Below, in pieces: positions 34,607 to 54,764 of a DNA stretch of 64,000 bases (position 1 is the first letter of the stretch; the number at the start of each line of letters is the position of its first letter). The position numbers and the translations under genes are program-made. A model generated the notes under the pieces. It searched no databases, was not told the DNA's origin, and saw only the letters and a program-made list of their open reading frames with translations. The stretch is from assembly GCF_000384475.1 (NCBI RefSeq), contig NZ_ARWB01000001.1, forward strand, positions 3,041,039 through 3,105,038, written 5' to 3'. Source of the DNA: Methylopila sp. M107. GTDB taxonomy: Bacteria > Pseudomonadota > Alphaproteobacteria > Rhizobiales > Methylopilaceae.

Positions 34607-34707
34607 CGGTCAACGGATTTGGATCACATGAGGTGTGTTCCAGTAATGTTCTTGACGGGGGTCGCGGCGCTGCTATCGTCAAAGTTGTCAAAAGCGGGGC
34701 AGGGATC

Positions 34708-35349: not shown

Positions 35350-35393
35350 AACATATGCTACATTAAAGGCATCGGCGTGCAGAGGGTCTATCG

Positions 35394-37130: not shown

Positions 37131-37181
37131 GCCCTCCCCTCGGGGAGGGCGCAGCCGCTGCCCCGCAGCGGGTGGGGGCTT

Positions 37182-38399: not shown

Positions 38400-38850
38400 T
38401 CCGACCCTCGATGTTCCCGATCGGCTCGTCTCCGTCGAGCCATGCCGCGACCGTAGCGACGGTCGCCTCCAACCCGATCGCGGTGCGCCCGCGGATGGCG
38501 CACTCCCAGACCGACATGACCCGCCAGGCCTGCTCACGAAGACGTTGCGCGGCTTCACCATCGCGTTCGGCGTTCCGCGCGATCTTCTGCGCCCAGAACT
38601 CCCGTCTCGTCCCGGGCAGACGGAACAGGTGACAGTGGTGGCCGTGCCAGAAGCAGCCGTTGACGAAGACCACCGCCCGTCGCCGCGCGAAAACCAGATC
38701 GGGCCGGCCGGGAAGGTTCCGGGCATGGAGCCGGTAGCGGAAGCCAAGGGCATGCAGCCCCCGGCGGATCAAGAATTCAGGGCGCGTGTCCTTGCCGCGG
38801 ATGCTCGCCATGATCCGGCTGCGGGTGGCCGCATCGACGACGTCACCCAA
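38386..38850 (-). CDS. vsr: Very short patch repair (Vsr) endonuclease
   Basis: The TTG at 38850 is preferred because the product then begins [14 protein letters not shown], aligning with the normal Vsr start; an ATG at 38889 would add 13 residues. The 154-residue protein has [28 protein letters not shown], whose metal-binding Asp and zinc-ligand Cys/His residues are typical, and [12 protein letters not shown]. Vsr nicks T:G mismatches left by deamination of methylated cytosine, which fits a C5-methyltransferase system. It overlaps both neighbours, showing coupled translation. Confidence 0.9.
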
Positions 38851-40087
38851 CCATCCGCTCCAGAACCGGAACTTCCGGCTGCACGCCAAGAAGGTGAGGC
38901 TCCATCAGCTTCGCCACGGCCTCGATGACCGGCACGGCGACCGCGTTTCCGAACTGCCTGTATGCCTGTGTATCCGAGACGGGGATGACCATCTCCCGGC
39001 CGCCGGGTCGATCGAAGCCCATCAGTCTTGCGCACTCGCGCGGCGTAAGTCGCCTCGGCGGACGTCCGCTCTGGCGCACGAGGATCTCGGACCCGTCCTT
39101 GAAGTAGCGGGCTGAGAGCGTCCGGGCGACATCGTCCGGTCCCACCAGTCCGTACCCGAAGCCGTTGCCCTTCTCTCGATGCTTGTCCGCGTAGGCCTGG
39201 AGGTAGCCCCACAGGTGTTCCGACAGTGTGTACCTCGCCGAGACCGTCGCCAGACGCCCCTCGGTGAATGGCTTCTCCGCTTCCTCGGAACCATCGCCGG
39301 GATGGAGGATGTCGCGAAGCCGTGGTCCACCGTCCGGGACCGACAGCCCGGCGAAATCGAAATCCACCGTATCGCGGAAACCGACGATGATGATGCGTTC
39401 GCGGTGCTGTGGCACCCAAGGTTTTGCGTCGATCACCTTTGCCCGGACATGGTAGCCGAGGTCCTTGACCAGGATGTCCATGATCACCTTGAAGGTGTGG
39501 CCACGGTCGTGGTTCACCAGATTCTTGACGTTCTCGAGCATGAACGCCTTCGGCCGCCGATCGCGGATCAGGCGGGCGACATCGTGGAACAGCGTCCCCT
39601 GCGCCTCGCAGGCGAACCCGTGTGGTCGGTTGAGCGCGTTGCGCTTGGATACGCCCGAGATGCTGAACGGCTGGCATGGAAAGCCCGCTAGCAGCAGGTC
39701 ATGGTCCGGCACGTCGTCGCCGTTGACCGAGCGGATGTCGCCCGTGATCTCATGATCGTCGTCGGGAAAGTTCGCGAGGTACGTCTTCTGGGAGTACTTG
39801 TCCCACTCGCACGTGAAGACGCACTTGCCGCCGATCGCGTCGAAGCCGCGGCGCAGCCCGCCGATTCCGGCGAACAGATCGATGAACCGGAAACCCTCCG
39901 GAACACTCCCGGCCTTCGCCGCGGCTGTTTCGGGACGGTATGAACGGAGAGCGCGGATCACCGCGGGCCTCGGAGCGCTTTCCCCGTTCTCCCAGCGATA
40001 GATCTGGCGATCCTTGTAACCCAAGTGCTCGGCCGCCTCGCCGATCGAAAGGCCAGCCCTCTGGCGCAACTGGGAAAACTCGGACAC
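38843..40087 (-). CDS. C5-cytosine DNA methyltransferase with N-terminal HTH (Dcm/M.EcoRII-like)
   Basis: The 414-residue protein starts with an XRE-type helix-turn-helix ([29 protein letters not shown]) that may regulate its own operon, as in M.EcoRII. C5-methyltransferase motifs follow: [14 protein letters not shown] (I), [11 protein letters not shown] with the catalytic Cys (IV), ENVKNL (VI), [11 protein letters not shown] (VIII) and [14 protein letters not shown] (X). It would protect the host from the EcoRII-like enzyme. Stop and Vsr start overlap. Confidence 0.9.
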
Positions 40088-40148
40088 TGAGAATCACTCC
40101 ATGGGACGATTTCTGCCACTATGTCACCATGAGAACGATTAGAGAACA

Positions 40149-41465
40149 TTAAATCGGCGCGGTTTCCACAGGGGCTTCCGCAGGCGGCACGGGGCGCGGC
40201 CCGAAAGCCCGCCGTGTCGGCTGGGGCGCAGGGAGGTGCACTTCGAGGGGAGGTGGCACTCTGCTGGCGCGCCAAGTGGCGTGCGACCGCAGCGCAGCGC
40301 GGATGTCCGACTTGGCCCCCGTGGCGAGCGCCGCGAACGATGGCGCCCGTTCGAGAAGGGCGAGCTCGGCGTCGATGTCGGCGAGCGCCCGACCGCCAAG
40401 CAGCCGCCGCGCCCGGTTAAGAGCACTCCGGCGGTTCCGCAGCGCCGGTCCTTGCAGCCCTTCCTGCTTGATCAGCCAGCGGCCGTAATCCTCCTCGATG
40501 GCGGGGATGCTCTCACCCTTCTCGCGGGCCATGATGACCCTGCCGATCGCCTCGGCCAGCGGGGGTGGCACGGCGTTGGCGATCATGAGCATCCGCTCGC
40601 GGGACTTCCTAGTGTCGAGCCAGTCCCAGTCCGGCGGGAAGCCGTGCAGTCGTGAGAGGGCCGACCACGGGAGCTTTGGAATCCTCTCGGCCGGCCCGAG
40701 GTCGGCCTTGTGGGGCCGGTAGCTGGGCGCGACGGCCTCATGTGCCGATCGGAGCAGCGTGGGTGCAGGATCGTCGATGGACCTGACGCCCCGCTTCTCT
40801 GAGTAGGGTCGCAGGAAGAACGCCCGGACGTGAGGCGGATGATCCCCGCCGGGATGGACCCCCACGTCGCCGCCGAGGGCGTCCCGGATCGTCATCGGCC
40901 GCTTGGCTTCGGCATCATTGAGGGCGGAGAAAAGGAACCCATCCTGTTCTCCCAGCCGTCCGATCGAGAAGAACCTCTTTCGCTTCTGCGGGACGCCGAA
41001 CAGGCTCGCGTCGAGCAGCACCTCGGTAAAGCCATAGCCCGACCGCGCCAGTATCGCCCGCGCCCGCGCGTAGCTTTTCGATGGGTAGGCTTGGCGGACA
41101 TTCTCGATCAGGAACCATGCGGGCCGGGCCGTGGCGACGATGACCGCGAAGGCGACCGTCAGGCCGGCGCGCTGACCCTCGATCCGCTTCCCCACGGCCG
41201 AAAAATCCTGGCACGGCGGACCGCCGACAATGATGTCAGGTTGAAGCTCCGCGATGCGTGGCGCGAGCGCCAGCAGATCGCCGAGGTCTGCCGGTCGGTT
41301 GTCGGGGAAGAGCTTACCGAAAGGTGCCGCCTTCAGGTTGGCGTTGTGCACTTTCAGCGCTCTCGGGTTCGAGTCGTATGAGGCGACGAGCCTGAATCCG
41401 GCTCTGCGGAGGCCACATCCCATGCCTCCGACCCCGCAGAACAGATCGACAGCTCTCACACGCAC
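40149..41465 (-). CDS. Second C5-cytosine DNA methyltransferase
   Basis: The protein (438 aa from the GTG at 41465, or 436 from GTG 41459, which has better ribosome-site spacing) has motif I VDLFCGVGGMGCGLR, motif IV GGPPCQDFSAVGKR, motif VI IENVRQAY, motif VIII QKRKRFFSIG and motif X ANAVPPPLAEAIG. About 100 extra C-terminal residues are rich in Arg, Ala and Pro. It is the first gene of the restriction-modification operon. Having two methyltransferases suggests that the recognition site is asymmetric or that this one has a different target. Confidence 0.87.
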   Translation of the reverse strand: MRVRAVDLFCGVGGMGCGLRRAGFRLVASYDSNPRALKVHNANLKAAPFGKLFPDNRPADLGDLLALAPRIAELQPDIIVGGPPCQDFSAVGKRIEGQRAGLTVAFAVIVATARPAWFLIENVRQAYPSKSYARARAILARSGYGFTEVLLDASLFGVPQKRKRFFSIGRLGEQDGFLFSALNDAEAKRPMTIRDALGGDVGVHPGGDHPPHVRAFFLRPYSEKRGVRSIDDPAPTLLRSAHEAVAPSYRPHKADLGPAERIPKLPWSALSRLHGFPPDWDWLDTRKSRERMLMIANAVPPPLAEAIGRVIMAREKGESIPAIEEDYGRWLIKQEGLQGPALRNRRSALNRARRLLGGRALADIDAELALLERAPSFAALATGAKSDIRAALRSHATWRASRVPPPLEVHLPAPQPTRRAFGPRPVPPAEAPVETAPI

Positions 41466-41469
41466 CCTC

Positions 41470-41497
41470 GGTCGTCACGAACTTCTTCGTGACGACC
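41470..41497. promoter_or_regulatory. Perfect 12-bp inverted repeat upstream of the methyltransferase operon
   Basis: GGTCGTCACGAA CTTC TTCGTGACGACC lies 5 nt upstream of the GTG start. It has no T-run and sits where an operator or an RNA hairpin covering the ribosome site would act. It may be the binding site of the HTH-containing methyltransferase; this is inference. Confidence 0.5.
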
Positions 41498-41679
41498 TTG
41501 CCCGGCATCGGTGGACAAATCGTCAAGGCCAATTCGCTGGCAGCGATTGAGCCCGCGGCTCGAAGGGCGGCGGCTGGGGCCATGCCCGCCGACTGAACGG
41601 ACCTTGTGCCGCTCGCGCCGACGCCGGAGCATGAAAACGCCGAGGGTCAACGGTCTGGCGGACCTCACCTCGGCGTGCT

Positions 41680-43557
41680 TTGGAGCGGCCTCAGAATGAG
41701 TCTCGGCGACGCACAGGTCAATTCCGCCCGCGCCTTGCGCGGGTGATCCCCCGGCCCGGTAGCTCCGCTACCGAGCCGACGCCCCGGACTACCCCCCAAG
41801 CCAAATTTGTTGACGACCAGACGTCCCGCCTCGGCGGGATCGGCGCCCGGGTCCTTGCATTGCGGGCCGCGATTGATGCGCGAGGCCCGGCGACCACCCC
41901 GGCCCGGTCAGGCGCCTTCGTCGACCTCTACGCCGCTTCGACCACGGCGCCCGCGCAGCCCGTCGCCGCGGCGCCTGCGCCCGGCGTCGACGATCTGCCG
42001 TGGAGACCCGCGAGCCGTCCCGCCAGGGGCGGCCTTGGGAGCGGAGGAGCTACGTTTCCGCACCCGACCGCAGGGAGGGTCGGAGGCGGAGCGCCGGAGC
42101 CCTTCCTTCCTGTCTCCTCTCTCTCCGAGACCGACAGGCCAGAGGCCGCCGACCCCGACCAGGTCGACCTCCGCGCTACGTCCGCCGTCCCGAGGCGCTG
42201 GCGCCTCCTGCACCGCGTCCAGCAGCTCTGCCGCCCCACCGACCCGGCCGAGCGAGGCCCCGCAGTCTGCGGCTGCGGACGGCCGGGCTACGACGCGACT
42301 GCGGTCAACATCCACCTCAGGGCGGGACGCGACGGTCGCGCCCGCGCAGGGGTCTCTGGGGTCTATCGCTGCGGCAGCCCCTGGCTCTGCCCGACCTGCG
42401 CCCCTGCCGCCGCGGCCGACCGTGCGGAGCGCGTCCAGGCCGTCGCGGACGCGACGCTTGCGCGCGGCGGCGCCGTCACGCTGGTCGTCCTCACGGCGAG
42501 CCACGGCCCGGACGACTCCCTGGCCGATCTGAAAGCGCTGGTCGGGGGCGCGAGCCGCCGCGCCCGCGCCGGACGAGCATGGGGCCGCCTGCAGGAGGCG
42601 CACGGCCTCCTCGGCGTCGTAGTCGGCCAAGAGGTCACCGTGTCGCGGAGGGCGGGCTGGCACTACCACCAGCATCTGGCGGTCCCGGTCGACGGCCCGA
42701 CCCCTACCGAGACCGCCGCCGCAGTAAACGATCCCAACCGCCTCGCCGCCTTCGTCCGCGACCGCGCTCTCGCCGCGGGCGAGGCAGTTGCCGAACGCTA
42801 CAAGGCCGCGCTGCGCGCGGCCGGTGGGACGGTCTCCGACCAACACGGCTGCTACGTCCGCGTCGCGGACGACGCGGACGACGCGAGCGGCTACACCGCC
42901 AAGGGCTCGGCCGCTTGGGAGATCTCCGGGGGCCACAAGACCGCGACACGTGTGGCCGCGTCTCTCACGCCTTTCGACCTCGCCGATGCGGCCTATGACG
43001 GCGACGCTTGGGCGCTGGCCCGCTGGGTCGAGTACGTCGAGACCATGCCAGGCACCCGGTCGTGCGTCGTGACGCGCAGCCTCGCCGACGTTCTCGGTCT
43101 AGCGACCGAGGCGGAGGACGAGCAGCCCGGCGAGCAGCAGTACCACGAGGCCGAGGACGTCGTCGGGCGACTCTCTGTCGAGACATGGCGCGAGCTCATG
43201 CGCGCCGCGGCCGTGCCCGCGTTGCTTGTGCGCGTAGAGCTCGGCGGTGCCGAGGCGTGGCTGGAGACCGCCGCATGGGCCGAGACCGTCGCCGCCGCCG
43301 GGATCGCTCGCCGCGAGGCCCGCCGCATGCGCGAGGTCGAGGCCGTCGCGGATCGGCGGGCCCGCGAGGCCGCGGCGACCCGTGCATACGCGCTCCGCCG
43401 CGCCGCTGACCGCGTCCGCTCATCCGGGGCCGGTCCTCTCGGCGCCCGCGACGCCGTCCGCCGCGCCGTCGCCGAGGCCGCGGCCGTTCACGGCGCCGTC
43501 CTCGATCCCGTCGAGATCATCCAGACCCTCGCGGAGGCCGCGTGCCGTGCGGCGTGA
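41680..43557 (+). CDS. Rolling-circle replication initiator (Rep_1-type HUH endonuclease)
   Basis: The protein (up to 625 aa from a TTG; a GTG at 41743 is another possible start) has a disordered N-terminal third. A Rep core follows, with zinc-like cysteines (C231, C237, C240 in CGSPWLCPTC), the metal-binding HUH motif WHYHQHLAV (His330, His332) and a YTAK block with the likely catalytic Tyr405. This order matches plasmid Rep proteins of the pC194/pUB110 kind, which nick a double-strand origin. In an integrated element it would give replication after excision. The strong Pro/Arg bias of the first 180 residues is unusual. Confidence 0.75.
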   Translation: MERPQNESRRRTGQFRPRLARVIPRPGSSATEPTPRTTPQAKFVDDQTSRLGGIGARVLALRAAIDARGPATTPARSGAFVDLYAASTTAPAQPVAAAPAPGVDDLPWRPASRPARGGLGSGGATFPHPTAGRVGGGAPEPFLPVSSLSETDRPEAADPDQVDLRATSAVPRRWRLLHRVQQLCRPTDPAERGPAVCGCGRPGYDATAVNIHLRAGRDGRARAGVSGVYRCGSPWLCPTCAPAAAADRAERVQAVADATLARGGAVTLVVLTASHGPDDSLADLKALVGGASRRARAGRAWGRLQEAHGLLGVVVGQEVTVSRRAGWHYHQHLAVPVDGPTPTETAAAVNDPNRLAAFVRDRALAAGEAVAERYKAALRAAGGTVSDQHGCYVRVADDADDASGYTAKGSAAWEISGGHKTATRVAASLTPFDLADAAYDGDAWALARWVEYVETMPGTRSCVVTRSLADVLGLATEAEDEQPGEQQYHEAEDVVGRLSVETWRELMRAAAVPALLVRVELGGAEAWLETAAWAETVAAAGIARREARRMREVEAVADRRAREAAATRAYALRRAADRVRSSGAGPLGARDAVRRAVAEAAAVHGAVLDPVEIIQTLAEAACRAA

Positions 43558-43597
43558 TGCCGCAGTGCGTTGGAGGGAGGAGAATCGGGCCCTCTGC

Positions 43598-43663
43598 GAA
43601 TCCTTACAACCCAGCGTCGAGTCCTTGCCGCAAGGATTCAGGTAAGGACTCAGTCAAGGATTC
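43598..43663. repeat. Iteron-like cluster of AAGGAYTC repeats
   Basis: Five copies occur in 66 nt: GAATCCTT (43598), GAGTCCTT (43619), then AAGGATTC (43632), AAGGACTC (43644) and AAGGATTC (43656). The last three are direct repeats every 12 bp; the second and third form a hairpin GAGTCCTTG CCG CAAGGATTC. Location 40 nt after rep suggests an origin or control site. Confidence 0.65.
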
Positions 43664-43783
43664 GATCGGTAGACCGTCAATCGATCCTTTTTTTGTCAAC
43701 ATTTGCAGCCTGTTGACGGTTGGATCTCGGTCGTTCTTGGTCGTATGCCGCTGGCACCCGCCAGCACCGCCACGGAGGGGCGC

Positions 43784-44224
43784 ATGACTACCGGACACAC
43801 GCATATCGGGCATCCGATGACCGACACCGACACCACCCCAGTCGCCGCGCTAGACGGTCCCGCCGCCTGGCGTGTCTGGCTCTCGCCCCAGCGGTCCATC
43901 CTGACCACGCCCGAACTCTCGGCCGCGATGAGCCACGCCGCCGCCGAGCGGCTGTGCGACGGCGATCCTCGCGATCCCGTCGCGACCACGGGTGACCGTG
44001 ACCACGATCGGCGTCGCCTCCGGGCTCGCACCCTCTATCGCGAGCTCGTCCAGCGCCGCCCCGTCGACCGCGACGAGGCGCTGACGATCGCACGCGCGGT
44101 CGCGGCCGTGCCGCCCGACTGGCGGTCTGCCCTACCGTCGCGTTCGCTCGACGTGCGCGATGCGCTCTACGCCGTCGATCCCGATGCCGCCGCGCAGGCG
44201 CCGCGCCGGGGGCTACCGCTGTGA
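43784..44224 (+). CDS. Hypothetical protein, first of a coupled small-gene operon
   Basis: The ATG at 43784 follows GGAGGGG and gives 146 residues. The start is threonine/histidine-rich, followed by a helical region (WRVWLSPQRSILTTPELSAA, RARTLYRELVQRRPVDRDEA). It has no recognised domain, membrane helix or cysteines. The stop overlaps the next GTG start, and three more genes follow in the same fashion, so these products probably work together. Function unknown; carried only by the element. Confidence 0.6.
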   Translation: MTTGHTHIGHPMTDTDTTPVAALDGPAAWRVWLSPQRSILTTPELSAAMSHAAAERLCDGDPRDPVATTGDRDHDRRRLRARTLYRELVQRRPVDRDEALTIARAVAAVPPDWRSALPSRSLDVRDALYAVDPDAAAQAPRRGLPL

Positions 44225-44508
44225 GCGGCCCCCGCGATCGCCGCCCGGAGGAGGCTATCTTCCGCCTCCTCGATGTAGCGATGGACGATACGAGCGGCGC
44301 TCGCGTCGTCCGCTCTTTCATCCTGGCCGCATGGAACGCAAGGGCCTTCGGGGGATTCGACCCGACGGACATGCGCCTCCTGGACCGCGCCAACCGCAGC
44401 GACGTCTTCTCCGTGATGACGGAGATCGCCGATGGCGGAGACCTGACCGAGCATCGCGACGCCATCGTCGCGATCATCCACGAATGGCGGCCGGAGGTGC
44501 TGTCATGA
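44221..44508 (+). CDS. Hypothetical protein, second of the small-gene operon
   Basis: The GTG start overlaps the previous stop (GTGA). The 95-residue protein is helical and soluble: EEAIFRLLDVAMDDTSGARVV, then FILAAWNARAFGGFDPTDMRLLD and an EIADGGDLTEHRDAIV end. The FDPTDMRLLD pattern is seen in some plasmid-borne proteins of unknown function, but I cannot name a family with confidence. It ends in an ATGA overlap with the third gene. Confidence 0.6.
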   Translation: MSGPRDRRPEEAIFRLLDVAMDDTSGARVVRSFILAAWNARAFGGFDPTDMRLLDRANRSDVFSVMTEIADGGDLTEHRDAIVAIIHEWRPEVLS

Positions 44509-44903
44509 ACGGTCCGTCAAGCGTGTCCGAAAGGGTCAACGCCCTGAGGCGTCGACTGGACGGCATCGTGGCCGGAACGTTCCATTACGACACGGTGATG
44601 ACGTCGTCGGAAAGTGCAGCCCGCGAACTGCTCGCGGGTGTCACGTTCGATGAGGGCGAACTTGCGATAGAGGCGCTGAGGTGTCTCGTTCATACCGCCG
44701 AGGCTGTCGAAGAACGGTCTGCCATGGACCTCGTGTCGGTCATCGCGCACCACTCCGGAATGCCCATCATCCCGGGGGACTATGAGCAGCGCATCGCCCG
44801 CGAGGCGGTGCGCGCATCGCGAATGGTGAGCGCGCTCAGCCACGCGATCGTCGGGGCGCAGGACGCCCGTGGATGGAAGTTCCCTGCGGCTGCTGACACG
44901 TGA
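44505..44903 (+). CDS. Hypothetical protein, third of the small-gene operon
   Basis: The 132-residue protein is encoded after an ATGA overlap. It is helical throughout (SVSERVNALRRRLDGIVAGT, SSESAARELLAGVTFDEGEL, EAVRASRMVSALSHAIVG) with one cysteine and no signal peptide. The family was not recognised. The stop overlaps the GTG of the next gene. Confidence 0.6.
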   Translation: MNGPSSVSERVNALRRRLDGIVAGTFHYDTVMTSSESAARELLAGVTFDEGELAIEALRCLVHTAEAVEERSAMDLVSVIAHHSGMPIIPGDYEQRIAREAVRASRMVSALSHAIVGAQDARGWKFPAAADT

Positions 44904-45169
44904 TAGTCCACCTCACCACCCGTTCCCGTCCCCGCCTCCGCTGGGACGGGGGGTCGTGCGGGTGGACCGCCGAGACCTCGCCGCCGTCCATCTTCGACTG
45001 GCGCGGTCTCGCGATCGATCTCCCCGATCGCGACCAAGGATTCCACTGGCGCGTCGAGGCCGCCGACATGACCGACCCCGATCCGGACGCGCTGGTGACC
45101 CTCGTCTCCGGGACGCGCCCAACCCTCACCGCCGCGAAGATCGCCGCCGAGGCCGCGGCAGGGGTCTGA
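44900..45169 (+). CDS. Hypothetical protein, fourth of the small-gene operon
   Basis: The GTG overlaps the previous stop. The 89-residue product begins VIVHLTTRSRPRLRWDGGSCGW and is beta-rich in the first half, with tryptophans that suggest a small barrel, and helical at the end (LTAAKIAAEAAAGV). No known motif. It closes the tightly coupled set; the next gene is 57 nt away. Confidence 0.55.
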   Translation: MIVHLTTRSRPRLRWDGGSCGWTAETSPPSIFDWRGLAIDLPDRDQGFHWRVEAADMTDPDPDALVTLVSGTRPTLTAAKIAAEAAAGV

Positions 45170-45226
45170 CCCGCCCTGGCCCCCCCGGCCGCCGGTCCTC
45201 ACGATCAGCGGCAGGAGGACCGACCC

Positions 45227-45478
45227 ATGATCGCCGCCCGCGCCGCCGCAGCATTCCTCGGCAGCGCCGTTTTCGTCGCTGCGCTTATGACCGGTCCAGC
45301 GCTCGTCGGGCTCGCGTGGGCCCGCGTCGGGACTTGGCCCGAGGCCGCGCTCATACCGATCCTCGGCCTGGCGCTCGCCGCCGCCGTGGTCGTCGCCCAT
45401 CGGCCATCCGATCGGCTCGCCCGGGCGGCTGCCGTGGTCGCGCTTGGTACGCTGGTGGCCCTTGGCATCGCCCTCTGA
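45227..45478 (+). CDS. Small membrane protein with three predicted helices
   Basis: The ATG follows GGCAGGAGGACC. The 83-residue protein has hydrophobic segments AAAAFLGSAVFVAALMTGPA, EAALIPILGLALAAAVVVA and AAAVVALGTLVALGIAL. It is very likely an inner-membrane protein of the element. The function is unknown; it may belong to the preceding operon. Confidence 0.6.
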   Translation: MIAARAAAAFLGSAVFVAALMTGPALVGLAWARVGTWPEAALIPILGLALAAAVVVAHRPSDRLARAAAVVALGTLVALGIAL

Positions 45479-46144
45479 GGCAGGCCGAAACGCAGAAAGC
45501 GGCCCCGAGGGACCGCCTTCCTTGGGGAAACCCCACATTATCGGGTTACCCGTGCCCGTAGGCACAATTTCCACCTGTTCGGCGTCGTCGTCGTTTCAAT
45601 CCACTCCCGAAGGAGATCGTGGAAACAAGATAATTCCGACCCGCCTGTGCGGCGGAGAACTCTCGATCCCCGTGCCCCGGAGGCACGACTCCCCGCTGAC
45701 GCAGGGCAAGACCCCCTCACGGGGAAGGCTACCGGTCGGAACGCCGAAGCGCTCTTTCCTGACCCCTTTCGGGGAAACCCCGCTTCCGCGGGGCGGTCAC
45801 ATCAGCAGGTGTCCCTGCCGACCCCCGAAGCATCTCACAGTGCAGCGGCAGCGTCAACAGTCTTGATTGTTACAAATCGGCAATAAACAAAGTAATCAAA
45901 TTTGCTTACCAAGCTTTGCATGTGAATTAACGGCGCCGCTTGGCATCCTTGTAAGGGTGCTAACCAGTGCTGTTCCCCTTGATCAGCCTTTGCCGTTCTC
46001 GCCCCTGTCCTACGCCGACGCCCCGCGGGGCGCTGATGCCCAAGCGCCGGAGGCGTCGTCCTCCGGGCGAGGCAGCTACCCCGCGCCGCGGCAGCGTCCC
46101 GGACGGCACGAACGGCCGCCCTTGCGGCCGACAGGAGACCTCTG
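45479..46144. other. Non-coding 666-nt stretch with a hairpin array and an AT-rich patch
   Basis: No convincing gene. Seven short perfect hairpins lie at 45524-45793 (stems GGGG/CCCC, GTGCC/GGCAC, CTCC/GGAG, CCGCC/GGCGG, CGTGCC/GGCACG, CCCC/GGGG twice, CCCCGC/GCGGGG; loops 3-5 nt). A markedly AT-rich patch follows at about 45860-45935 (ACAAATCGGCAATAAACAAA). Candidates: a single-strand replication origin, a structured RNA, or an origin of transfer. Confidence 0.5.
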
Positions 46145-46276
46145 ATGCGCCAGACCGTATCCATCCGCATCCGCCTCGGCCGTGCTCTCCTCGCGATGCT
46201 CTGGGCCGCGAGGCCGTTCATCGTCCTGATCCTGCTCCCGCTCGTCGCCGCGCTGCTCCTGAAGGCGACGGGCTAG
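46145..46276 (+). CDS. Small single-helix membrane peptide (43 aa)
   Basis: The ATG follows ACAGGAGACC. The 43-residue product is MRQTVSIRIRLGRALLAM then a hydrophobic stretch (FIVLILLPLVAALLL) and KATG. The strong ribosome site supports it, though its size keeps confidence low. Its end overlaps the convergent DotA/TraY-like gene by 4 nt. Confidence 0.4.
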   Translation: MRQTVSIRIRLGRALLAMLWAARPFIVLILLPLVAALLLKATG

Positions 46277-48345
46277 CCCCCCGTCGCCCGGAGCGGGACG
46301 CCGCCCGACGCCCCAACCCCGTCCGAGTCCTTGCTCGAATCCTTCGGCGCCTTCGGGACCGGCGCCCGGACATGGCGCCCGGCGCCGGTGGCCGCGGCGA
46401 CGACCGTGGTCCCCGCCTCGCCCTCGCCCCAGCTCGACACCGAGAAGCCCAGCCACTGCCCGACGCGTTCCGGCGCGGTCAGGATCATCTTGTAGCTCCA
46501 GAGCACGAGCTGCCACTGGACATAAACGAGCACGCCGAACGAGACGACGAGCCCCGTCACGCCGAGGGAGAACCCGACCTGTGCGCTCTGGAACGCGAGG
46601 TTGTAGCTCGACAGGAAGACGTTGAGCAGGACGGTGTTCGTCATGTGCGCGGCGATGAACGCGGCCACGGTGACGGCCGGGCGCAGGAACACCGAGATCA
46701 GCAGGGCGGCGTATCCGTGCTTCTGCGCGTGTCCGACGAAATCCGGCTCGTCCATGCGGACATGGGCGAACGCCCAGACCAGCACGGCGATCGAGGCCGT
46801 CAGCACCTCCATCACCCACGCCGCGAAGGCAAAAAATAGAAACAGGAACGGCAGCAGCGGCAACACGTAGGTGAGGATGGCGCCGCCGAGCCAGAACGCC
46901 CCGATGGCGGGCCAGACGGCGACCGAGAGGAAGTCCAGAAGCCCGCCGCCGGCGCCGAGCGCCAGGCTGCTCGCCGTGTACGCCGCCACCGCGACGGCGA
47001 ACGCCGCCTGGGCGCCGACCATCGCGCGGTTGCCCAGGTTCATCAGGTCACCGACCGGGTCCGTCCTCCGGCCCGAGTACCCCGTCAGGAAGGCGTGCAC
47101 GGGCTCGGTCAGGCTCGACAGCGCCCGTCCGAGCATGCCGCGCTCGTCGGCCGAGGCGTCGGCCACCACGCCCGAGGCGAGAACGGTGGCGGCCGCCTCG
47201 CGCTGGTACTGCGACTGGACGAGGCGCAGCGCGGCGCTGACAGGCCCGGCGACCGAGTCCCAAGCCGCCGGGTCCGGGGACACCCGCTCCGCGCGTTCCC
47301 CCGCGGCTTCGGAGGTTGCGAGTCCCGCGTGGCCAAGAATCCGGTAGTACGAGCCCAGCGCAACGAACCCCCGCTCGCCGATGTCGCGCACGACCTCTTC
47401 GCGCAGCGTCGCCGTCCCGGCGGAGCTTTTGGCCGCCGTCGCGGCGGCCTGCGAGATCGCCCTGTCGTAGGCGTCGCCGACCCGCTGGACGGTGCCCGAG
47501 AGGTCGCGGAGCAGCGCGCCCGACTGCTGGAGGATCGCCTGGAGCTCGGGACCGCCCGAGGGCAGGCCGCCGGCCGAGACGTGCTGGACGGCGGTCGCAA
47601 GCTGCTCCTGAAACCCGAGCCCCCGGACCTCCCCGACGAGTGTCGCGACCGACTGCCGCCGGGCCTCGCCGAATCCCGTGAGCCCGTCCGCAGCGCCGAG
47701 CGTCACCGACCCGCACGCCCGGCCCCAGTCCCACGCGTAGCCCGTCGTCCGGGCTGGCGTGCTGGGGCCGCCCGGCCACCAGCTCGACCGCGCCGGCACC
47801 GTGACGGGCTGCCCGGACGGCGACGGCGGCGATGTCGTCGCCGTCTGCGCCATGTTCGTCATCGCGGCCTTCAGCGCCGCGAGGCACGCCTCGGATTCCA
47901 CCACCTGCCAGGCGAGCGCCCGGCCTCCCGTCGAGACCGGCGAGAGCGGATGGCCATCCTTCAGGACGTGCTCGGCCGCTGCGACGGCCGCGGCGTTCGC
48001 CATGTTGATCCCCGGCCGCACGACGCCGTCGCGCAGCAGGTAATGAACCGAGGACAGGCCGCCTGCGACCGGGACCAGCAGCCCGAATCCGATGACGACG
48101 CGCATGATCCCCATCGCGCCCGAGGTCTGCTCCGCCAGCACCGTCCCGGTCCGCGCTGCCCGGACGATCGCGCTCAGGATCGCATAGCCGAGGTAGCACG
48201 CCGCGAGCAGCGTCAGCGTCGCGGAGATGACGCGGGCCACGACCGCGAATCCTGTGGTGTCGCCCGCCATCGGAAGGATCGTCGTCACCACGCGCCACGC
48301 GACGTCGGTGTCGGCCGGGAGCGCCAGAAGATCGCCGGGAGTCAT
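46273..48345 (-). CDS. DotA/TraY-like type IVB secretion-system membrane protein
   Basis: The 690-residue protein has N-terminal helices (TTGFAVVARVISATLTLLAA, MRVVIGFGLLVPVAGGLSSV), a large extracytoplasmic middle domain and a cluster of C-terminal helices (ILTYVLPLLPFLFLFFAFAA, FSLGVTGLVVSFGVLVYVQW). The SGAMGIMRVVIGFGLLVP block and the final helices match DotA of Legionella and TraY of IncI plasmids. Only this one component is present, so it may assist entry exclusion or a helper system instead of forming a channel. Its start overlaps the stop of the small accessory gene. Confidence 0.75.
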   Translation of the reverse strand: MTPGDLLALPADTDVAWRVVTTILPMAGDTTGFAVVARVISATLTLLAACYLGYAILSAIVRAARTGTVLAEQTSGAMGIMRVVIGFGLLVPVAGGLSSVHYLLRDGVVRPGINMANAAAVAAAEHVLKDGHPLSPVSTGGRALAWQVVESEACLAALKAAMTNMAQTATTSPPSPSGQPVTVPARSSWWPGGPSTPARTTGYAWDWGRACGSVTLGAADGLTGFGEARRQSVATLVGEVRGLGFQEQLATAVQHVSAGGLPSGGPELQAILQQSGALLRDLSGTVQRVGDAYDRAISQAAATAAKSSAGTATLREEVVRDIGERGFVALGSYYRILGHAGLATSEAAGERAERVSPDPAAWDSVAGPVSAALRLVQSQYQREAAATVLASGVVADASADERGMLGRALSSLTEPVHAFLTGYSGRRTDPVGDLMNLGNRAMVGAQAAFAVAVAAYTASSLALGAGGGLLDFLSVAVWPAIGAFWLGGAILTYVLPLLPFLFLFFAFAAWVMEVLTASIAVLVWAFAHVRMDEPDFVGHAQKHGYAALLISVFLRPAVTVAAFIAAHMTNTVLLNVFLSSYNLAFQSAQVGFSLGVTGLVVSFGVLVYVQWQLVLWSYKMILTAPERVGQWLGFSVSSWGEGEAGTTVVAAATGAGRHVRAPVPKAPKDSSKDSDGVGASGGVPLRATGG

Positions 48346-48614
48346 GACGCGCCTCCCTCGGCCGAGGGCGCAGGCGCCGCGTCAGGGCGGACGAACAGGC
48401 GCCGGTCCCGCTCGGCCATTCTCGGCAGCAGCGTCCGCATGATGTCGGCCGGGACCGCGCCGTCCCGGACCGCCGCCATCAAGGCGCCGCCCAAGACGAT
48501 CTTGCGGCGAGCGTCATCCCGGCGAGCAGTCTCCTTGAGCGCCGCGGTCGTGCTCGCGAGCCGGGCCTCCAAGGCGGCCCGCTTCTGCTCCAGCGTCGTC
48601 AGGTCCAGCGCCAT
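48342..48614 (-). CDS. Small mobilization accessory-like protein
   Basis: The 90-residue protein begins MALDLTTLEQKRAALEARLAS, a coiled-coil segment, followed by RRDDARRKIVLGGALMAAV and a helix (DIMRTLLPRMAERDRRLF). The coiled coil plus KIVLGGAL...R pattern resembles small relaxosome proteins (MobC/TraC-like) encoded divergently from MobA/MobL relaxases. The start faces the relaxase gene across 170 nt, which would be the natural place for an oriT. Function inferred from context. Confidence 0.5.
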   Translation of the reverse strand: MALDLTTLEQKRAALEARLASTTAALKETARRDDARRKIVLGGALMAAVRDGAVPADIMRTLLPRMAERDRRLFVRPDAAPAPSAEGGAS

Positions 48615-48783
48615 CGTCGTCTCCCCCAAGCCGTGCGTCACGAAATGATTGGTTCCGAGACCGTTGCGTCCAAACCGCCGGCGACAATTCTCAGGGGGAG
48701 ACCGAGAGCAGGGGAAGGGCGCGGTTAAGCGGACTTCGTTCGCTGCGGTCCTGCGGACGGCGAGAGGCGCTTCAAAGCGCAGC
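48615..48783. other. Divergent region between accessory gene and relaxase (candidate oriT)
   Basis: The 169-nt gap separates the divergent mobilization genes. It has CGTCACGAAATGATTGG and scattered purine-rich blocks but no strong inverted repeat. An oriT commonly lies here in MobA/L systems; I could not identify a nick site by eye. Confidence 0.25.
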
Positions 48784-50616
48784 ATGAGGAGACCACGCGA
48801 CGTGACGAGTCTGTCTGACCACGAGGCGATCTGCCACGTCACGGCGAGCGTCGTGCAGCGGTCGAAGGGCCGAAGCGCCGTTGCGGCGAGCGCATACCGC
48901 GCAGCAGCGCGTCTCACCGACGCGCGAACAGGCGAGACGTGGGACTACAGCCGCAAGCGCCACGTCACGAACTCCTACGTGACGGCGCCCGCCGACGCCC
49001 CGGCCTGGGTCTACGATCGCGAAGCCCTCTGGTGCCGCGTGGAGCTGGCCGAGAGCCGCCGCAACGCCGTTACCGCCCGTGAGGTCACGATCTCGATCCC
49101 GCGCGACCTCCCGCCTGAAGCCTGGCGCAACTTCCTAGAAGACGTGACCGCTCCCTACGTGCACGCCGGCGCCATCGTGGATGTCGCCGTCCATTGCCCG
49201 CGCGCTGGCGACGGCGAGGAGCAGCCGCACGCGCATCTCCTTCTGACGACCCGGGCCCTCGACCTTTCCGGTCCGCAAGGATTCGCCGCCACCCGCAACC
49301 CCGACCTCGCGGCGCTGTTCGAGAGCGGCGGCAGACACGGTGGAGGCCGCCGCGGCGACGCGCTCAAGCTCGAGCGCGCCCGGATCGCGGCCGTGATCAA
49401 CGATCATCTCCGGGCAGCCGGTTCGAAACGCCGAGCCGACGCGCGGAGCTACCGGGCCCGCGGCGACCCGAGGGCGCCCGAGCCCAAAATCGGCGAGCAG
49501 CGCATGGCCTCGGTGCGCCGGGCCCGGCGACACGACCGCCGAACCGCTCTCGTCGCCGCGCTGCGCGAGGCACGCAGAACCGAAACCCAACTCACAAGAC
49601 TGGAGGCTCAGATGGCTCTGACTGCCCGCGGATTCCCGAAGAGGACGGCCCCCGGCCGCCAACAGGACTACAAGCTGGCGCTGCTCAAAGAGCGGCATCC
49701 TGACGCTGACCTGACAGACGTCGCGGCCGACCTCCACATGGTGGACGCGAAGGACTCGCGACGCCTCCGAATCCTCACCCGCGATTGCGGGTGGGTAGAG
49801 GTCGACGACCAGGCCGGGACCATGCGGACCTGGGGTCGCCCCGGACGCGCCGCGAACCTCGCGCAGCGCCTGTCCGAGGCCACGGGCTACCCCATCGAAT
49901 CCTTGTCGCGGACCGCGACCGCGGGCCGTCCCGGCGGTCGTCGGCGCCCCGGCCCGGCCTCCGAGGCCGAGGCCATCTCGATCGCGGATCGCTGGCGTCT
50001 CCGCGGCTACGCCGACGTGACGGAATCCCCTTCCGGGGTGGTCGTCAAAGTCGGCGCCTCGCGCCTGGTCGACAGCGGCGACCACGTGGCGATGTACGGC
50101 CAAGTGAGCGACGATGCGATCCGCGCCCTCGTCGCCAAGTCGGCGGAGGACTGGGGCGGCTCGCTCGTCCTCGACGGCCCTTGGCCCGAGGAGGCCAGGG
50201 CGAGGGTCTGGATCGAGGCACAGAGGCAGGGCGTCGCGCTCAGCGACTACGAACCGTCGCCGGACCTCCTCGCCGCCTGGGAGGCAGAGCAGGGCGGCGC
50301 AGCGGGAGCGGCGACTGCGCTCAAAGTCGTCCGCAACGAGGCGAAGGAGGCGGACCACCTCCTCGCCGCGGCCAGCGGCGATGTCGCTGCGTTGAAGAAG
50401 TTGGACCCAGACCTGAAAGCCTTCGTAGCAAGCTTCCTGGATGACGAGCAGCGCGCCGAGTTCTCAAAGCAGGACCGCGCAGAGCTCATCCCTGAGCTCC
50501 ACCGCTTCCGTGCCCTCGGCGCCGCCGAGCGGGCCGACCGCCCGGACCTCGACGTCGCGACGCCCGCGCCGCGTCCGGCTCCTGCCGACGAGCGGCCGGA
50601 GGCCCGCCCCTCATGA
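48784..50616 (+). CDS. MobA/MobL-family relaxase
   Basis: The 610-residue protein has the relaxase N-terminus with motif I tyrosine Tyr38 in SAVAASAYRAAARL and the HUH motif III PHAHLLLTTR (His149, His151) near residue 150. A long basic, helical C-terminal part follows. MobA/MobL proteins nick oriT and lead single-stranded DNA into a recipient. The ATG at 48784 is used; GTG at 48802 has a better ribosome site (AGGAG) and may be the true start. The stop overlaps the next start (ATGA). Confidence 0.82.
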   Translation: MRRPRDVTSLSDHEAICHVTASVVQRSKGRSAVAASAYRAAARLTDARTGETWDYSRKRHVTNSYVTAPADAPAWVYDREALWCRVELAESRRNAVTAREVTISIPRDLPPEAWRNFLEDVTAPYVHAGAIVDVAVHCPRAGDGEEQPHAHLLLTTRALDLSGPQGFAATRNPDLAALFESGGRHGGGRRGDALKLERARIAAVINDHLRAAGSKRRADARSYRARGDPRAPEPKIGEQRMASVRRARRHDRRTALVAALREARRTETQLTRLEAQMALTARGFPKRTAPGRQQDYKLALLKERHPDADLTDVAADLHMVDAKDSRRLRILTRDCGWVEVDDQAGTMRTWGRPGRAANLAQRLSEATGYPIESLSRTATAGRPGGRRRPGPASEAEAISIADRWRLRGYADVTESPSGVVVKVGASRLVDSGDHVAMYGQVSDDAIRALVAKSAEDWGGSLVLDGPWPEEARARVWIEAQRQGVALSDYEPSPDLLAAWEAEQGGAAGAATALKVVRNEAKEADHLLAAASGDVAALKKLDPDLKAFVASFLDDEQRAEFSKQDRAELIPELHRFRALGAAERADRPDLDVATPAPRPAPADERPEARPS

Positions 50617-51068
50617 GCGCCGACGCGGAATCGTTGGCGCTGCGCCGCTACGTCCGCGAGCGCGCCGCGGGCCGGGCCGCCGCCGAGTGGTCCCGCTACG
50701 ATCCGACGATCGGAGCTTGGCTCGCCGCCGACGAGGTTGGCGCCGCTGACGCGAAAGGACTCGGCCTGCCATGGCGCCGTGTCCGGCAAGCCGGGGCACC
50801 GTGGTGCCAAGTGCTCGGCGCCGACGTTTCGGTGGCCCGAGACGACGAGCTCCAGGCGCACCTTGCAACGTTCGACGTGGACGACCTCCCGGCTTGGCGC
50901 CGGGCATGGAAAGGCTGCGCCCGCCACCCTCGCCAGTCCCTCGCCGAATGGCGGGCGTCTGGTGCCCGCCTGCTCGCCGCCGCGACAGGCGGGCCGGTCA
51001 CAGCCGGTCCGCTCGCGGCGCTGTTCCAACGCCGAGGGACGGGCCGCCGCTCGCTTCTCGGCCTCTGA
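50613..51068 (+). CDS. Hypothetical protein coupled to the relaxase
   Basis: The 151-residue protein is translated from an ATGA overlap with the relaxase. It is tryptophan- and arginine-rich (GRAAAEWSRYDPTIGAWLAA, LPAWRRAWKGC). The last 47 residues (SLAEWRASGARLLAAATGG to RRGTGRRSLLGL) are repeated with changes in the frame at 53288-53479. Function unknown; its position suggests a mobilization accessory role. A weak hairpin follows it. Confidence 0.6.
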   Translation: MSADAESLALRRYVRERAAGRAAAEWSRYDPTIGAWLAADEVGAADAKGLGLPWRRVRQAGAPWCQVLGADVSVARDDELQAHLATFDVDDLPAWRRAWKGCARHPRQSLAEWRASGARLLAAATGGPVTAGPLAALFQRRGTGRRSLLGL

Positions 51069-51095
51069 GACGATCCCGCTGACACCCTGATTTCT

Positions 51096-51112
51096 TGGGG
51101 TATCCTACCCCA
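51096..51112 (+). terminator. Weak terminator-like hairpin after the relaxase operon
   Basis: TGGGGTA TCC TACCCCA is a perfect 7-bp stem with a 3-nt loop, 28 nt after the coupled gene. No T-run follows, so termination may depend on Rho. Confidence 0.35.
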
Positions 51113-51646
51113 TCTCGTTCCCGCGATCTGCGTCAGCAAGCCTCCTAGCCGTCCTCATTTTTGGATTCGGTCCCCGGAAGCCCCCGGACGGGCCTCCGGT
51201 CCGGGATGGTCTTTATCATGCCGACTTCCCGGCGCCCGTCGCACCGCCCCCGCGCGACCTGGCGCCGCGACCACTGCGGGTCGGCCTGCGGCCTCAAGCG
51301 GGCCGCGGCTCGGTCGGGCCGGTAGCCCACCCTGCGCCCGCACCGCCCCGCTTGCCCCGCCGAAGCCGCAGCGCCTTCACGGCCGCGGGCGATGCGACGG
51401 GCGACGGGTGAGGTCGAGGAGTTGGGCACCGTGGTCTGGCTGCGCCCTCTAAGGATTCGAGAAGGGGCCTCGCTCAGGCTCTGGGCGAGGATCAGTCCTC
51501 AATGATCGAGGAGAACTTCAGCTTGGAGTTCGAGCCGCCAGTGCTCGCCGACGACGTCGCAGAAGGTCTTCGAGCGGATTGGTGACACTCCGACTATTTC
51601 TCATACGGGGTTGTTCAACCCGGTTAGAGTTCCTGCTTCATTGACC
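51113..51646. other. Non-coding stretch between the relaxase operon and the 506-aa gene
   Basis: No convincing gene. It holds one AAGGATTC motif (51451) and a hairpin GGGTTG TT CAACCC (51609-51622) just beyond the stop of the minus-strand gene that may end its transcript. A short minus-strand frame at 51145-51429 is Arg-rich and lacks support. Confidence 0.35.
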
Positions 51647-53167
51647 TTACCTGCCAGAAGCCGAGGCCTGCAGTCCCACGCCGCCGAGCATCGCTGCCAC
51701 GCGGGACTCGATGAGCACGACGGTCCCCGACCTCAACAGGTCCGCGTCGTCGACCCTGCTGATGCTCAGCAGGATCTCGTCGCCGTGGCCATCGAAACCG
51801 CGCAGGTCGTTCACCGCCAGCTCCGCTGATCCTTGGCTCCCGTCGTCATCCACAAGAAGCGCAGCGACCTGGGCGAAGCCGCTCCACCCGCGGGGACGCG
51901 GGGCGCAGCCGAGGTCGCAGCTCGCCTCGCCCCATGACTCCTTGCAGACCTCGACCTCGCCGAGCGTCCAAACAGGCGCCCACTCGACGCTGAGGCCCTC
52001 GTCCCATGCATCGAGCACCTCGCCGACGAACGCCCTCGAGTCGCTGACGTGCATGAGGCAGCGGTCGTAAGGCCGCCCCGAGACCATCCCGGCCTGGAGA
52101 CGGCGGCCGAACACCACCCGCTCGAGGCCGAGCCACCGCTCGGCGCTCGTCCCGCCCTCGTCCCACGACGGACCGGATACGTAGAAGCGGTGCGGTCCCG
52201 TCTCGAAGCCGTCGAGCTCCCTGAGGCCTTTTGTCCTCGCCTCGTCCATAATCTCGCGAAGGACCTTGGCCTCGTAGCCCTTGTCGAGCGTCATCCCGGC
52301 GGCCGCGGCGATCACGGCACGGGTCTGGGGACGGCCGGCGCATGAGGCCAACATCGCGTCGACCTTGGCCGTCCTCGCAGAGCGGCGGATGGCGGCGGCC
52401 TTCGCGTCGCTGTCGATCCCGTGGCGCTCCGGGACCCCGAGGCGGGCGCGCTCCACGGCCTCGACCAGCAGCGCGCGTCGCCTGAGCGCCGAGAACGTGC
52501 CGCCGGGGTCCTCGAGGAAGGAGGAGCGCTTCCGGCGCACCGAGGCGGTGGCCTCGCACGTCGAGAACCATTCGGCGTCGCGCCCTTCCGCGCCGGGCGA
52601 GGCGTCGAAGGCGAGGCCGAGGTCGACCAGCCTCCCGACGGCACCCGAGGTGGCGGACGTGCTCTGGGCCCCGAGCACCGCCGCGAGGGACTCGATCGTG
52701 CGGGGTCCTGACTGCAGGATCTCTAGCGCCTCGACGTCGGACGGGCCGAGCGCCTCGCGCACCGCCCAGTCGACGGGCACGGGGTCGGCACCCCACGCGC
52801 GGGTCTCCATGAGGCCGGGCGGTCGGCTCCTGTGCGGGAAGGCCGACGGCCCGAGCCGGGTCGCCTCGGCGACCGCGGCGCGCAGACACGAGCGAAGGGC
52901 TGCCCAGTTGACGTCGACCCCCCGGCCGACCTCCTCGGCGAGCGAGCGCCCCTCCGGCGTGAGGCGGAACGTCCCTCCGCTCTCGACCACCGCCCTGCGG
53001 TTGACCACGCGGGCAAGCGCCGGGTCGGTAGCGCTCTTGCCCTTGAGGCCTGCGAGCGCGGCGATCGCAACCTGGAAATCGGCGTAGGAGAAGTCGACGA
53101 GCGCCCACGCCGCCGCGATGGGGCCGCGGGGCAGCCCGGAAAGTCCCCCGCCGCCGTCCCGTGCCAT
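51647..53167 (-). CDS. Unknown 506-aa protein with winged-helix-like N-terminus
   Basis: The N-terminal 250 residues contain a LDALEIL-type helix-turn-helix segment (DVEALEILQSGPRTIESLAA, TSGAVGRLVDLGLAF) that looks like a winged helix. A helical middle follows (LVEAVERARLGVPERHG, LREIMDEARTKGLRELDGF). The C-terminal half is beta-rich, with PYDRCLMHVSDSRAFVGEVL. No membrane helix, signal peptide or known enzymatic motif. It is encoded alone on the minus strand between two related C-terminal modules. I cannot assign a function; a regulator or defence cargo is possible. Confidence 0.6.
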   Translation of the reverse strand: MARDGGGGLSGLPRGPIAAAWALVDFSYADFQVAIAALAGLKGKSATDPALARVVNRRAVVESGGTFRLTPEGRSLAEEVGRGVDVNWAALRSCLRAAVAEATRLGPSAFPHRSRPPGLMETRAWGADPVPVDWAVREALGPSDVEALEILQSGPRTIESLAAVLGAQSTSATSGAVGRLVDLGLAFDASPGAEGRDAEWFSTCEATASVRRKRSSFLEDPGGTFSALRRRALLVEAVERARLGVPERHGIDSDAKAAAIRRSARTAKVDAMLASCAGRPQTRAVIAAAAGMTLDKGYEAKVLREIMDEARTKGLRELDGFETGPHRFYVSGPSWDEGGTSAERWLGLERVVFGRRLQAGMVSGRPYDRCLMHVSDSRAFVGEVLDAWDEGLSVEWAPVWTLGEVEVCKESWGEASCDLGCAPRPRGWSGFAQVAALLVDDDGSQGSAELAVNDLRGFDGHGDEILLSISRVDDADLLRSGTVVLIESRVAAMLGGVGLQASASGR

Positions 53168-53287
53168 GCGCCACCGTTGTCGACAATTGAGCCACGGTCG
53201 ATACCCTGCGCCTCGGGCACGGGCAACTGCGTCCCGTGGAGACGCGATCGACCGGCTACTCGCGTTCCAGTTCCTCCAACCGCCTCA

Positions 53288-53479
53288 GTGCGCCGCCTGC
53301 TCGACAGTTTCCTCGATGGCTCCGAAGAGGCAATCAGGAAAAGACAGACCCTCCCCGAGTGGCAAGCCTCCGGCCGCCGCCTACTCGCCGCGGCGACTGG
53401 CGCTCCTGCCCGGGATGGTCCGCTCACGGACCTGTTCGTGACACGCGGCGCGGGCCGTCGCAGTCTCCTCGACCTTTGA
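53288..53479 (+). pseudogene. Fragment repeating the C-terminus of the relaxase-coupled protein
   Basis: From a GTG, 63 residues (VRRLLDSFLDGSEEAIRKRQ, then TLPEWQASGRRLLAAATGAP to RGAGRRSLLDL) align with the last 47 residues of the product encoded at 50613-51068. There is no ribosome site of note, so it is read as a remnant of a duplicated gene, although a short functional paralog cannot be excluded. Confidence 0.45.
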
Positions 53480-53642
53480 GCGGAGTCCGCTGGCGGTCGT
53501 CAATTTTGGGGCGCGTTACCGTCTCACCTACGCGATCGGCCGATATCCCACCTGCGCCTGCACTCCCGTTTATCGGCCGAGGCCGCGCGACAAGTGGCGT
53601 GGTCGGGCTGCGTCCGCCCACGCCAGATAAGGCAATTAACGG

Positions 53643-54527: not shown

Positions 54528-54759
54528 TAGGTGCACTCGCGTTGAACCGCCGGTACGGTCGCCGATTCGGCCTACGCGTTCGTTGCTTGGTTGCAGATTC
54601 CGTGGGTGGCAACACTCGAGGCGTGCTGACCAGCCAATCACCGCAATCTTAGAAGCCAGCAGCCTTGCCCGTTCATTCCGCTCAGGTGAACGAGATGGAT
54701 GGGCCCGCCGCAGGTGCTCACGCGGCCCATCACCTTTTCGAAATTAATGTCTCACACAA

Positions 54760-54764
54760 TGCTG
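54760..54764. mobile_element. attR core of the comM-inserted element
   Basis: TGCTG matches attL. TTAATGT (54744-54750) is the element-side attP arm; GGCCGCC (54772-54778) is the chromosomal attB arm. Confidence 0.75.

Follow-up and report, generated by a model that had tools for sequence, protein, structure and literature searches.

In type IV secretion systems (T4SSs), VirB6, TraG of F, TrbL of RP4, TraY of R64 and DotA have been equated with one another (PMC12624023), and a DotA-IcmX pentamer forms the gate of Dot/Icm (PMC12857230). Subunits of this type also occur on islands and on integrative and mobilizable elements (IMEs). SGI1, a mobilizable island with its own replication, replaces the TraG of its helper with its own VirB6-type TraG, by which IncC entry exclusion is defeated (PMC5389848, PMC5704250); the IncP island of Brucella suis, an IME with its own relaxase, relaxosome proteins, a VirB5 (TrbJ) and the VirB6 homolog TrbL, has been proposed to subvert its helper, and the island GISul2 carries TrbJ, TrbK and TrbL, including the VirB6 homolog (PMC5704250). 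For remodelling of the pore by mobilizable elements there is one established F-type case (SGI1), and the P-type cases are proposals. Here, a 64,000-nucleotide stretch of the genome of Methylopila sp. M107 (hereafter the window; order Hyphomicrobiales, single contig, 4.45 Mb chromosome) was analysed, in which an element of about 19.4 kb carries a lone DotA/TraY protein, that is, a type IVB subunit, beside a MOBQ relaxase.

By its gene content and insertion site, the 19.4-kb stretch is an IME put into comM by a serine recombinase: a site-specific recombinase and a defined insertion site, its own relaxase and a candidate origin of transfer (oriT) were found together with no complete T4SS. It shares with SGI1, GISul2 and the IncP island a VirB6-type subunit carried without a full T4SS, and differs from each of them in its parts. 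SGI1 combines F-type TraN/TraH/TraG with a mobilization module of a non-canonical kind, whereas the Methylopila element, in the Alphaproteobacteria, has MOBQ and type IVB DotA/TraY alone; the IncP island is MOBP with P-type TrbJ and TrbL and a tyrosine integrase in guaA, whereas the element has MOBQ, a type IVB subunit, a serine recombinase in comM and no recognised VirB5; and GISul2, with P-type parts, has no relaxase. TraY of IncI1 and IncM plasmids and DotA of Legionella Dot/Icm belong to the same family (TIGR04346) but work in complete type IVB systems, whereas the protein of the element stands alone with mobilization genes. IMEs with a VirB6-type subunit have been described before. What appears to be new is the type IVB variant and the fact that it recurs with several classes of relaxase, and no published description of lone-DotA/TraY elements was found in the open-access literature, although papers outside it could exist. 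The transfer genes are as follows.

46273-48345, minus strand: dotA/traY, 690 amino acids (aa), VirB6-equivalent inner-membrane channel subunit of type IVB systems (TIGR04346)
48342-48614, minus strand: small mobilization accessory gene, 90 aa, overlapping the dotA start by 4 bases
48705-48770 (approximate): candidate oriT with a nic core of MOBQ type (TTAACCGCGCCCTT, minus strand) beside an inverted repeat
48802-50616, plus strand: MOBQ (MobA/MobL) relaxase with LPD7 domain (PF03389, 1.9e-44; PF18821; NF041496, 1.3e-50)
50613-51068, plus strand: 151-aa companion protein overlapping the mobQ end, with relatives adjoining mobQ in all members

The 690-aa protein scored 179.6 bits against TIGR04346 (DotA_TraY, curated NCBIfam cut-off 100), its relatives also exceeded the cut-off, and a profile of the protein and its relatives matched the solved Legionella DotA (9ngy) at 7.4e-30. 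The DotA/TraY assignment made in a preliminary description of this DNA is thereby upheld against membership of an unrelated family. AlphaFold2 applied to five IME DotAs gave a poor model (predicted local distance difference test score, pLDDT, 52) with no significant Foldseek match, and the family call consequently rests on the profiles. DotA is single-copy in the genome; DotH (PF12293) and DotI (PF11393) were absent from the whole 4.45 Mb, and no other type IVB genes were recognised in the element. Because DotH and DotI are absent from the genome, the element, judged by its genes, is not itself a type IVB (mating-pair formation type I, MPF_I) secretion system.

For the relaxase, whose start at 48802 is backed by homologs, the best NCBIfam model was MobQ (NF041496, 171.9 bits, under the equivalog cut-off of 200), and PF03389 was over its cut-off; blastn of mobQ against plasmids gave one short match only. 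By tblastn, the accessory gene matched 144 plasmid records, 128 of them mobilizable and several annotated as "mobilization protein". It is kept in all relatives, divergent from mobQ, and the start of dotA lies within its last four bases, an overlap that suggests translational coupling of the two genes. Between the accessory gene and mobQ, each of the seven elements described below has an inverted repeat and, after it, a core similar to (T)TAANCGCGCC(C)TT. Compared with the published MOBQ oriT consensus (TAAGTGCGCCCTY / NWACCNNTAAGTGCGCCCTYNN; PMC3832669), which it resembles, the conserved core with its inverted repeat is a candidate MOBQ oriT. The preliminary description, in which no other transfer genes were reported, was right as to further type IVB genes but overlooked the accessory gene (48342-48614) and this candidate oriT. 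The tail of the 151-aa protein (..EWRASGARLLAAATG..RRGTGRRSLL) is conserved in relatives and recurs 2.2 kb downstream, past a 506-aa gene, in a short reading frame at 53252-53479.

The coexistence on an integrated element of a Rep protein, a MobA/L relaxase and a single DotA/TraY, claimed earlier from inspection, was confirmed by family profiles, motif alignment and genome scans. The integrated state was also borne out, but the span of 41680-50616 given for the element was too short: homology of comM to the intact gene of a congener ends at 35349 and picks up again at 54754, with 85% DNA identity on both sides, so that the element extends from about 35350 to 54753. A large serine recombinase at its left end had been missed.

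34706-35349, plus strand: 5' part of the interrupted comM/yifB, a Mg-chelatase-like ATPase gene (PF13541 ChlI; 85% DNA identity to the congener comM)
35394-37130, plus strand: large serine recombinase, likely the integrase (PF00239 Resolvase, PF07508 Recombinase, PF13408), left end of the element
54754-55652, plus strand: 3' part of the interrupted comM/yifB (85% DNA identity to the intact congener comM from 54754)

The break point falls within the P-loop codons of comM (HNLL/FCGPP). A relative of the element (locus L015) occupies the same comM site with a recombinase 40% identical to that of the window, and the 5' part of comM adjoins another (L026). In a congener (genome G008, contig C3, locus L075), comM is broken at this very position by an element with a serine recombinase (30% identical), other cargo and no DotA, and the P-loop site accordingly looks like an insertion hotspot.

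The gene set was searched for in other genomes, and the block of dotA, accessory gene, oriT, mobQ and 151-aa gene was found again at six loci besides the window, which belong to Aureimonas, Pleomorphomonas and other Hyphomicrobiales.

L015 and L017: two copies of the block in one genome (G336)
L016/L027: block in Pleomorphomonas oryzae DSM 16300
L024: block in Aureimonas pseudogalii
L025: block in Aureimonas sp. AU12
L026: block in a Hyphomicrobiales metagenome-assembled genome

Relative to the window, identity at these six loci was 37-57% for DotA and 45-62% for MobQ, and in all seven the overlap or close spacing of dotA and the accessory gene, together with their divergence from mobQ across the oriT, is kept. 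Among a close trio of relatives, dN/dS of DotA was 0.10-0.16, indicating purifying selection. The integrase is a serine recombinase in the window and L015 and a tyrosine recombinase in L016 and L025. Lone DotAs were also found beside other relaxases: divergent from a NikA/MobC-like gene and a MOBP relaxase (L021, L022), downstream of a MOBV-like relaxase (L018), with a distant MOBQ relaxase and a tyrosine integrase (L062), and 6 kb from a weaker relaxase match (L019). No DotH was found in the genomes of these lone-DotA loci. A lone DotA on a mobilizable element, regarded at first as an oddity, is thus a recurrent arrangement. Gene identity, linkage, conservation, recurrence and the absence of the tested partners are direct observations.

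These counts were placed against samples of genomes from the order and the class, many of them drafts in which a helper plasmid could be missed through fragmentation; the Methylopila genome is complete by tool estimate, and DotH served as the main marker of a complete system. DotA was over the cut-off in 10 of 397 genomes of the order, three of which also had DotH (G044, G228, G328) and seven did not; in the class it was found in 17 of 385 genomes, 14 with DotH, the exceptions being the Methylopila genome, G436 and G447. As a control, DotH was over its cut-off in 5 of 397 genomes; two of these had no DotA, whether above the cut-off or within the stretches that were examined, so that detection without the partner is not entirely peculiar to DotA. 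Three plasmids of the order, namely pRlX5, the AM1 megaplasmid and Bosea pANAM02, carry DotA together with DotH. In the DotA tree, in which some long branches make finer placement unsure, the seven DotAs of the MOBQ elements formed one group (100/99), those of the MOBP elements lay across a 99/98 branch near the DotA of a DotH-bearing genome, and both groups stood among DotAs of complete systems. Since the MOBQ and MOBP groups lie on different sides of the 99/98 branch, DotA was probably captured by elements at least twice.

Three other loci concern the same proteins. In G336, two related DotA-MobQ elements coexist, one of them in comM, which raises the matter of their mutual compatibility. 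On a 58-kb contig of G447 (L065), a lone 889-aa DotA has no recognised relaxase nearby; a Wadjet JetA gene is about 5 kb away, and an Mrr-type endonuclease is also close. A 161-kb plasmid of Microvirga ossetica (L012) carries DotA/TraY and a pilV shufflon adhesin gene, with no DotH match on the same plasmid.

The function favoured here, to which a probability of roughly 0.6 is given, is that the element would supply its own VirB6-type subunit (DotA/TraY) to the MPF_I channel of a helper, favouring its transfer and its escape from entry exclusion. In plasmid pCTX-M3, a traY deletion is complemented in trans (PMC6112013); excA and traY are the variable pair within the IncI1 tra set (PMC8004404); and delivery of DNA through Dot/Icm by the MOBQ relaxase MobA of RSF1010 depends on dotA (PMC5572225). 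We infer excision, helper use, pore substitution and exclusion escape in the following order. On arrival of an MPF_I conjugative plasmid in the cell, the element would excise and replicate, and its relaxosome would dock on the machinery of the helper. The DotA/TraY of the element may then join or replace the DotA/TraY pentamer of the helper in the channel. With its own gate, transfer of the element would be favoured, and passage into cells already holding the helper would become possible, because TraY is the donor-side determinant recognised by the exclusion protein of the recipient. Substitution or addition of the DotA of the element in the helper MPF_I pore is the simplest account of the locus. 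The pairing of dotA with relaxases in unrelated elements suggests that such elements travel by way of helper plasmids, putting their own gate protein in place of the resident one, and the occurrence of a lone type IVB gate beside several relaxase classes suggests that swapping of VirB6-type gates is a general trick of hitchhiking elements. The finding offers a direct test of DotA/TraY specificity and exclusion, a genome marker for such elements and a naturally separable DotA. A bolder proposal, put forward only tentatively, is that a repeatedly evolved class of IMEs parasitises type IVB conjugation with a portable DotA/TraY gate, linked to any relaxase (MOBQ, MOBP or MOBV) and paired with its own 43-aa excluder, gate and excluder making up a transferable specificity cassette.

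Several points count against helper pore substitution. Mobilization, excision and pore substitution are all deduced here from sequence, and no MPF_I helper was found in the Methylopila genome. Identity between the IME DotAs and those of the plasmid systems found is only about 26-28%, so that no specific helper could be matched, and an exclusion protein has not been demonstrated in any candidate helper. In SGI1, GISul2 and the IncP island, VirB6 is accompanied by one or more partners (TraH/TraN or VirB5), unlike in the Methylopila element, among whose open reading frames no family match to a VirB5/IcmX, TraH or TraN partner was obtained, although a divergent IcmX-like protein is possible. A further pore partner of this kind (VirB5, TraH, TraN), common to the known pore-remodelling IMEs and matched by none of the element proteins, is perhaps not essential.

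Alternatively, DotA/TraY could be a dominant-negative part by which a resident or incoming MPF_I machine is poisoned (fertility inhibition), protecting the element or the host. A pentameric subunit would be a natural target for such interference, and the SGI1 subunits also raise transfer of SGI1 over that of its helper (PMC5389848); but dotA is arranged as part of the mobilization operon, and what is conserved along with it is oriT and relaxase rather than defence cargo, and an inhibitor would block the element's own route as well. Poisoning is considered unlikely.

Of the two roles suggested in the preliminary description, use of a helper channel was the better supported, DotA being a VirB6 equivalent, co-oriented with a mobilization gene and found beside several kinds of relaxase, whereas exclusion by DotA lost ground because TraY acts on the donor side and the recipient excluder is a separate membrane protein (ExcA of IncI and IncM). 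Entry exclusion against other MPF_I elements might also be exerted by small membrane proteins encoded near dotA.

45227-45478, plus strand: 83-aa small membrane protein (hydropathy scan)
46145-46276, plus strand: 43-aa microprotein with a single transmembrane segment, convergent with dotA, whose 3' end it overlaps

A single-transmembrane counterpart of 37-48 aa was found near the dotA 3' end in opposite orientation at all seven loci, and a second membrane protein of 71-98 aa occupies a like position in most members, with weak sequence similarity between them. Clear mutual resemblance of these frames was seen only inside sub-groups, and in GC-rich DNA some may be chance frames; the proteins are candidates for a role in exclusion or as a partner. 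VirB6 genes come with exclusion genes in other systems (trbK with trbL, excA with traY), but in the systems studied the VirB6-type protein acts in the donor and exclusion in the recipient is the work of another protein (PMC5389848, PMC12624023), and although the 43-aa microprotein could exclude, DotA would stay unexplained. Exclusion as the role of the locus is considered about as improbable as poisoning.

A little less probable still is that DotA/TraY works without any MPF_I helper, either as an adapter in a T4SS of another class or as a channel of its own. The Methylopila genome and the relatives tested are without MPF_I genes and MPF_I systems are rare in the order, which speaks for it, but a rare helper is also to be expected for an element that waits on a transient plasmid, and VirB6-type proteins are not known to act outside their own machine. 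That dotA is a leftover of a decayed integrative and conjugative element, to which the presence of just one of many type IVB transfer genes might point, is very improbable and was rejected on the recurrence and purifying selection of DotA, a single gene kept at full length in at least three relaxase contexts and found, in the order sample, more often without DotH than with it.

The replication gene lies to the left of the transfer block.

41680-43557 (start approximate), plus strand: rolling-circle replication initiator, pIJ101/pC194-like HUH Rep, 625 aa (tblastn, motif alignment, phrog_11698 at 3e-38)

By tblastn, this Rep is related to those of small rolling-circle plasmids, pRm1132f and pIJ101 among them; it had no Pfam match, Rep_1 included, and no relatives of Rep or DotA were found in a scan of IMG/VR. 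In the alignment, the zinc-finger region with its Cys pairs, HUH motif 2 (GWHYHQHLAV) and motif 3 (GYTAKG, with the catalytic Tyr) are intact, and the Cys pairs, GWHYHQH and GYTAK are common to pIJ101, pAP1, pRm1132f and the Aureimonas sp. AU12 element. With the catalytic residues conserved in homologs, the earlier identification of a Rep-like HUH initiator stands. The pIJ101/pRm1132f-type plasmids have the same HUH and tyrosine motifs at 30-35% identity, whereas the Rep of the Methylopila element sits in an integrated element together with a relaxase. The presence of two HUH enzymes, singled out in the preliminary description, reflects ordinary modularity, because replicases vary between relatives while dotA-mobQ is kept: a rolling-circle Rep occurs in the window and L025, a Phage_GPA type in L026 and, in the likely replicase position of L015-L017, a third protein of about 690 aa. 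Rep and relaxase as one functional pair were rejected, since relatives pair the dotA-mobQ block with a Phage_GPA-type or unrelated replicase. The copies of the third protein (L015:13656-15692, L016:3566-5653, L017:2705-4768) are 72-79% identical, and the L016 copy, which was searched, had no Pfam or NCBIfam match; it is possibly an unrecognised replication initiator.

The remaining genes of the element are cargo or have no function assigned.

37182-38399 (start approximate), minus strand: EcoRII-type restriction endonuclease, cargo (PF09019, 1.2e-61; PF09217, 3.1e-37)
38386-38889, minus strand: Vsr mismatch endonuclease, cargo (PF03852, 1.7e-30)
38843-40087, minus strand: helix-turn-helix and C5-cytosine methyltransferase (Dcm), cargo (PF00145, 1.7e-74)
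40149-41465, minus strand: second C5-cytosine methyltransferase (PF00145, 1.8e-42)
43703-45169, plus strand: four small tightly packed genes with no function assigned, from the open reading frame list; one is DUF7673 (44221-44508; PF24720, 4.5e-19)
51647-53167, minus strand: 506-aa protein with no assigned function
53252-53479, plus strand: short reading frame in which the C-terminal ~42 residues of the 151-aa companion recur
53643-54641, minus strand: 332-aa protein with no assigned function, right end of the element

For the 506-aa protein, nothing was over a family cut-off in Pfam and there was no PADLOC or NCBIfam match, and the 332-aa protein had no family match in Pfam, PADLOC or NCBIfam. 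Copies of the second methyltransferase, 42-49% identical, were found near related elements in L015, L017, L018, L026 and L027, and the enzyme possibly protects the element against restriction in new hosts. The EcoRII-Vsr-Dcm set of the window is also present in L018 (G327), a different lone-DotA element with the MOBV-like relaxase.

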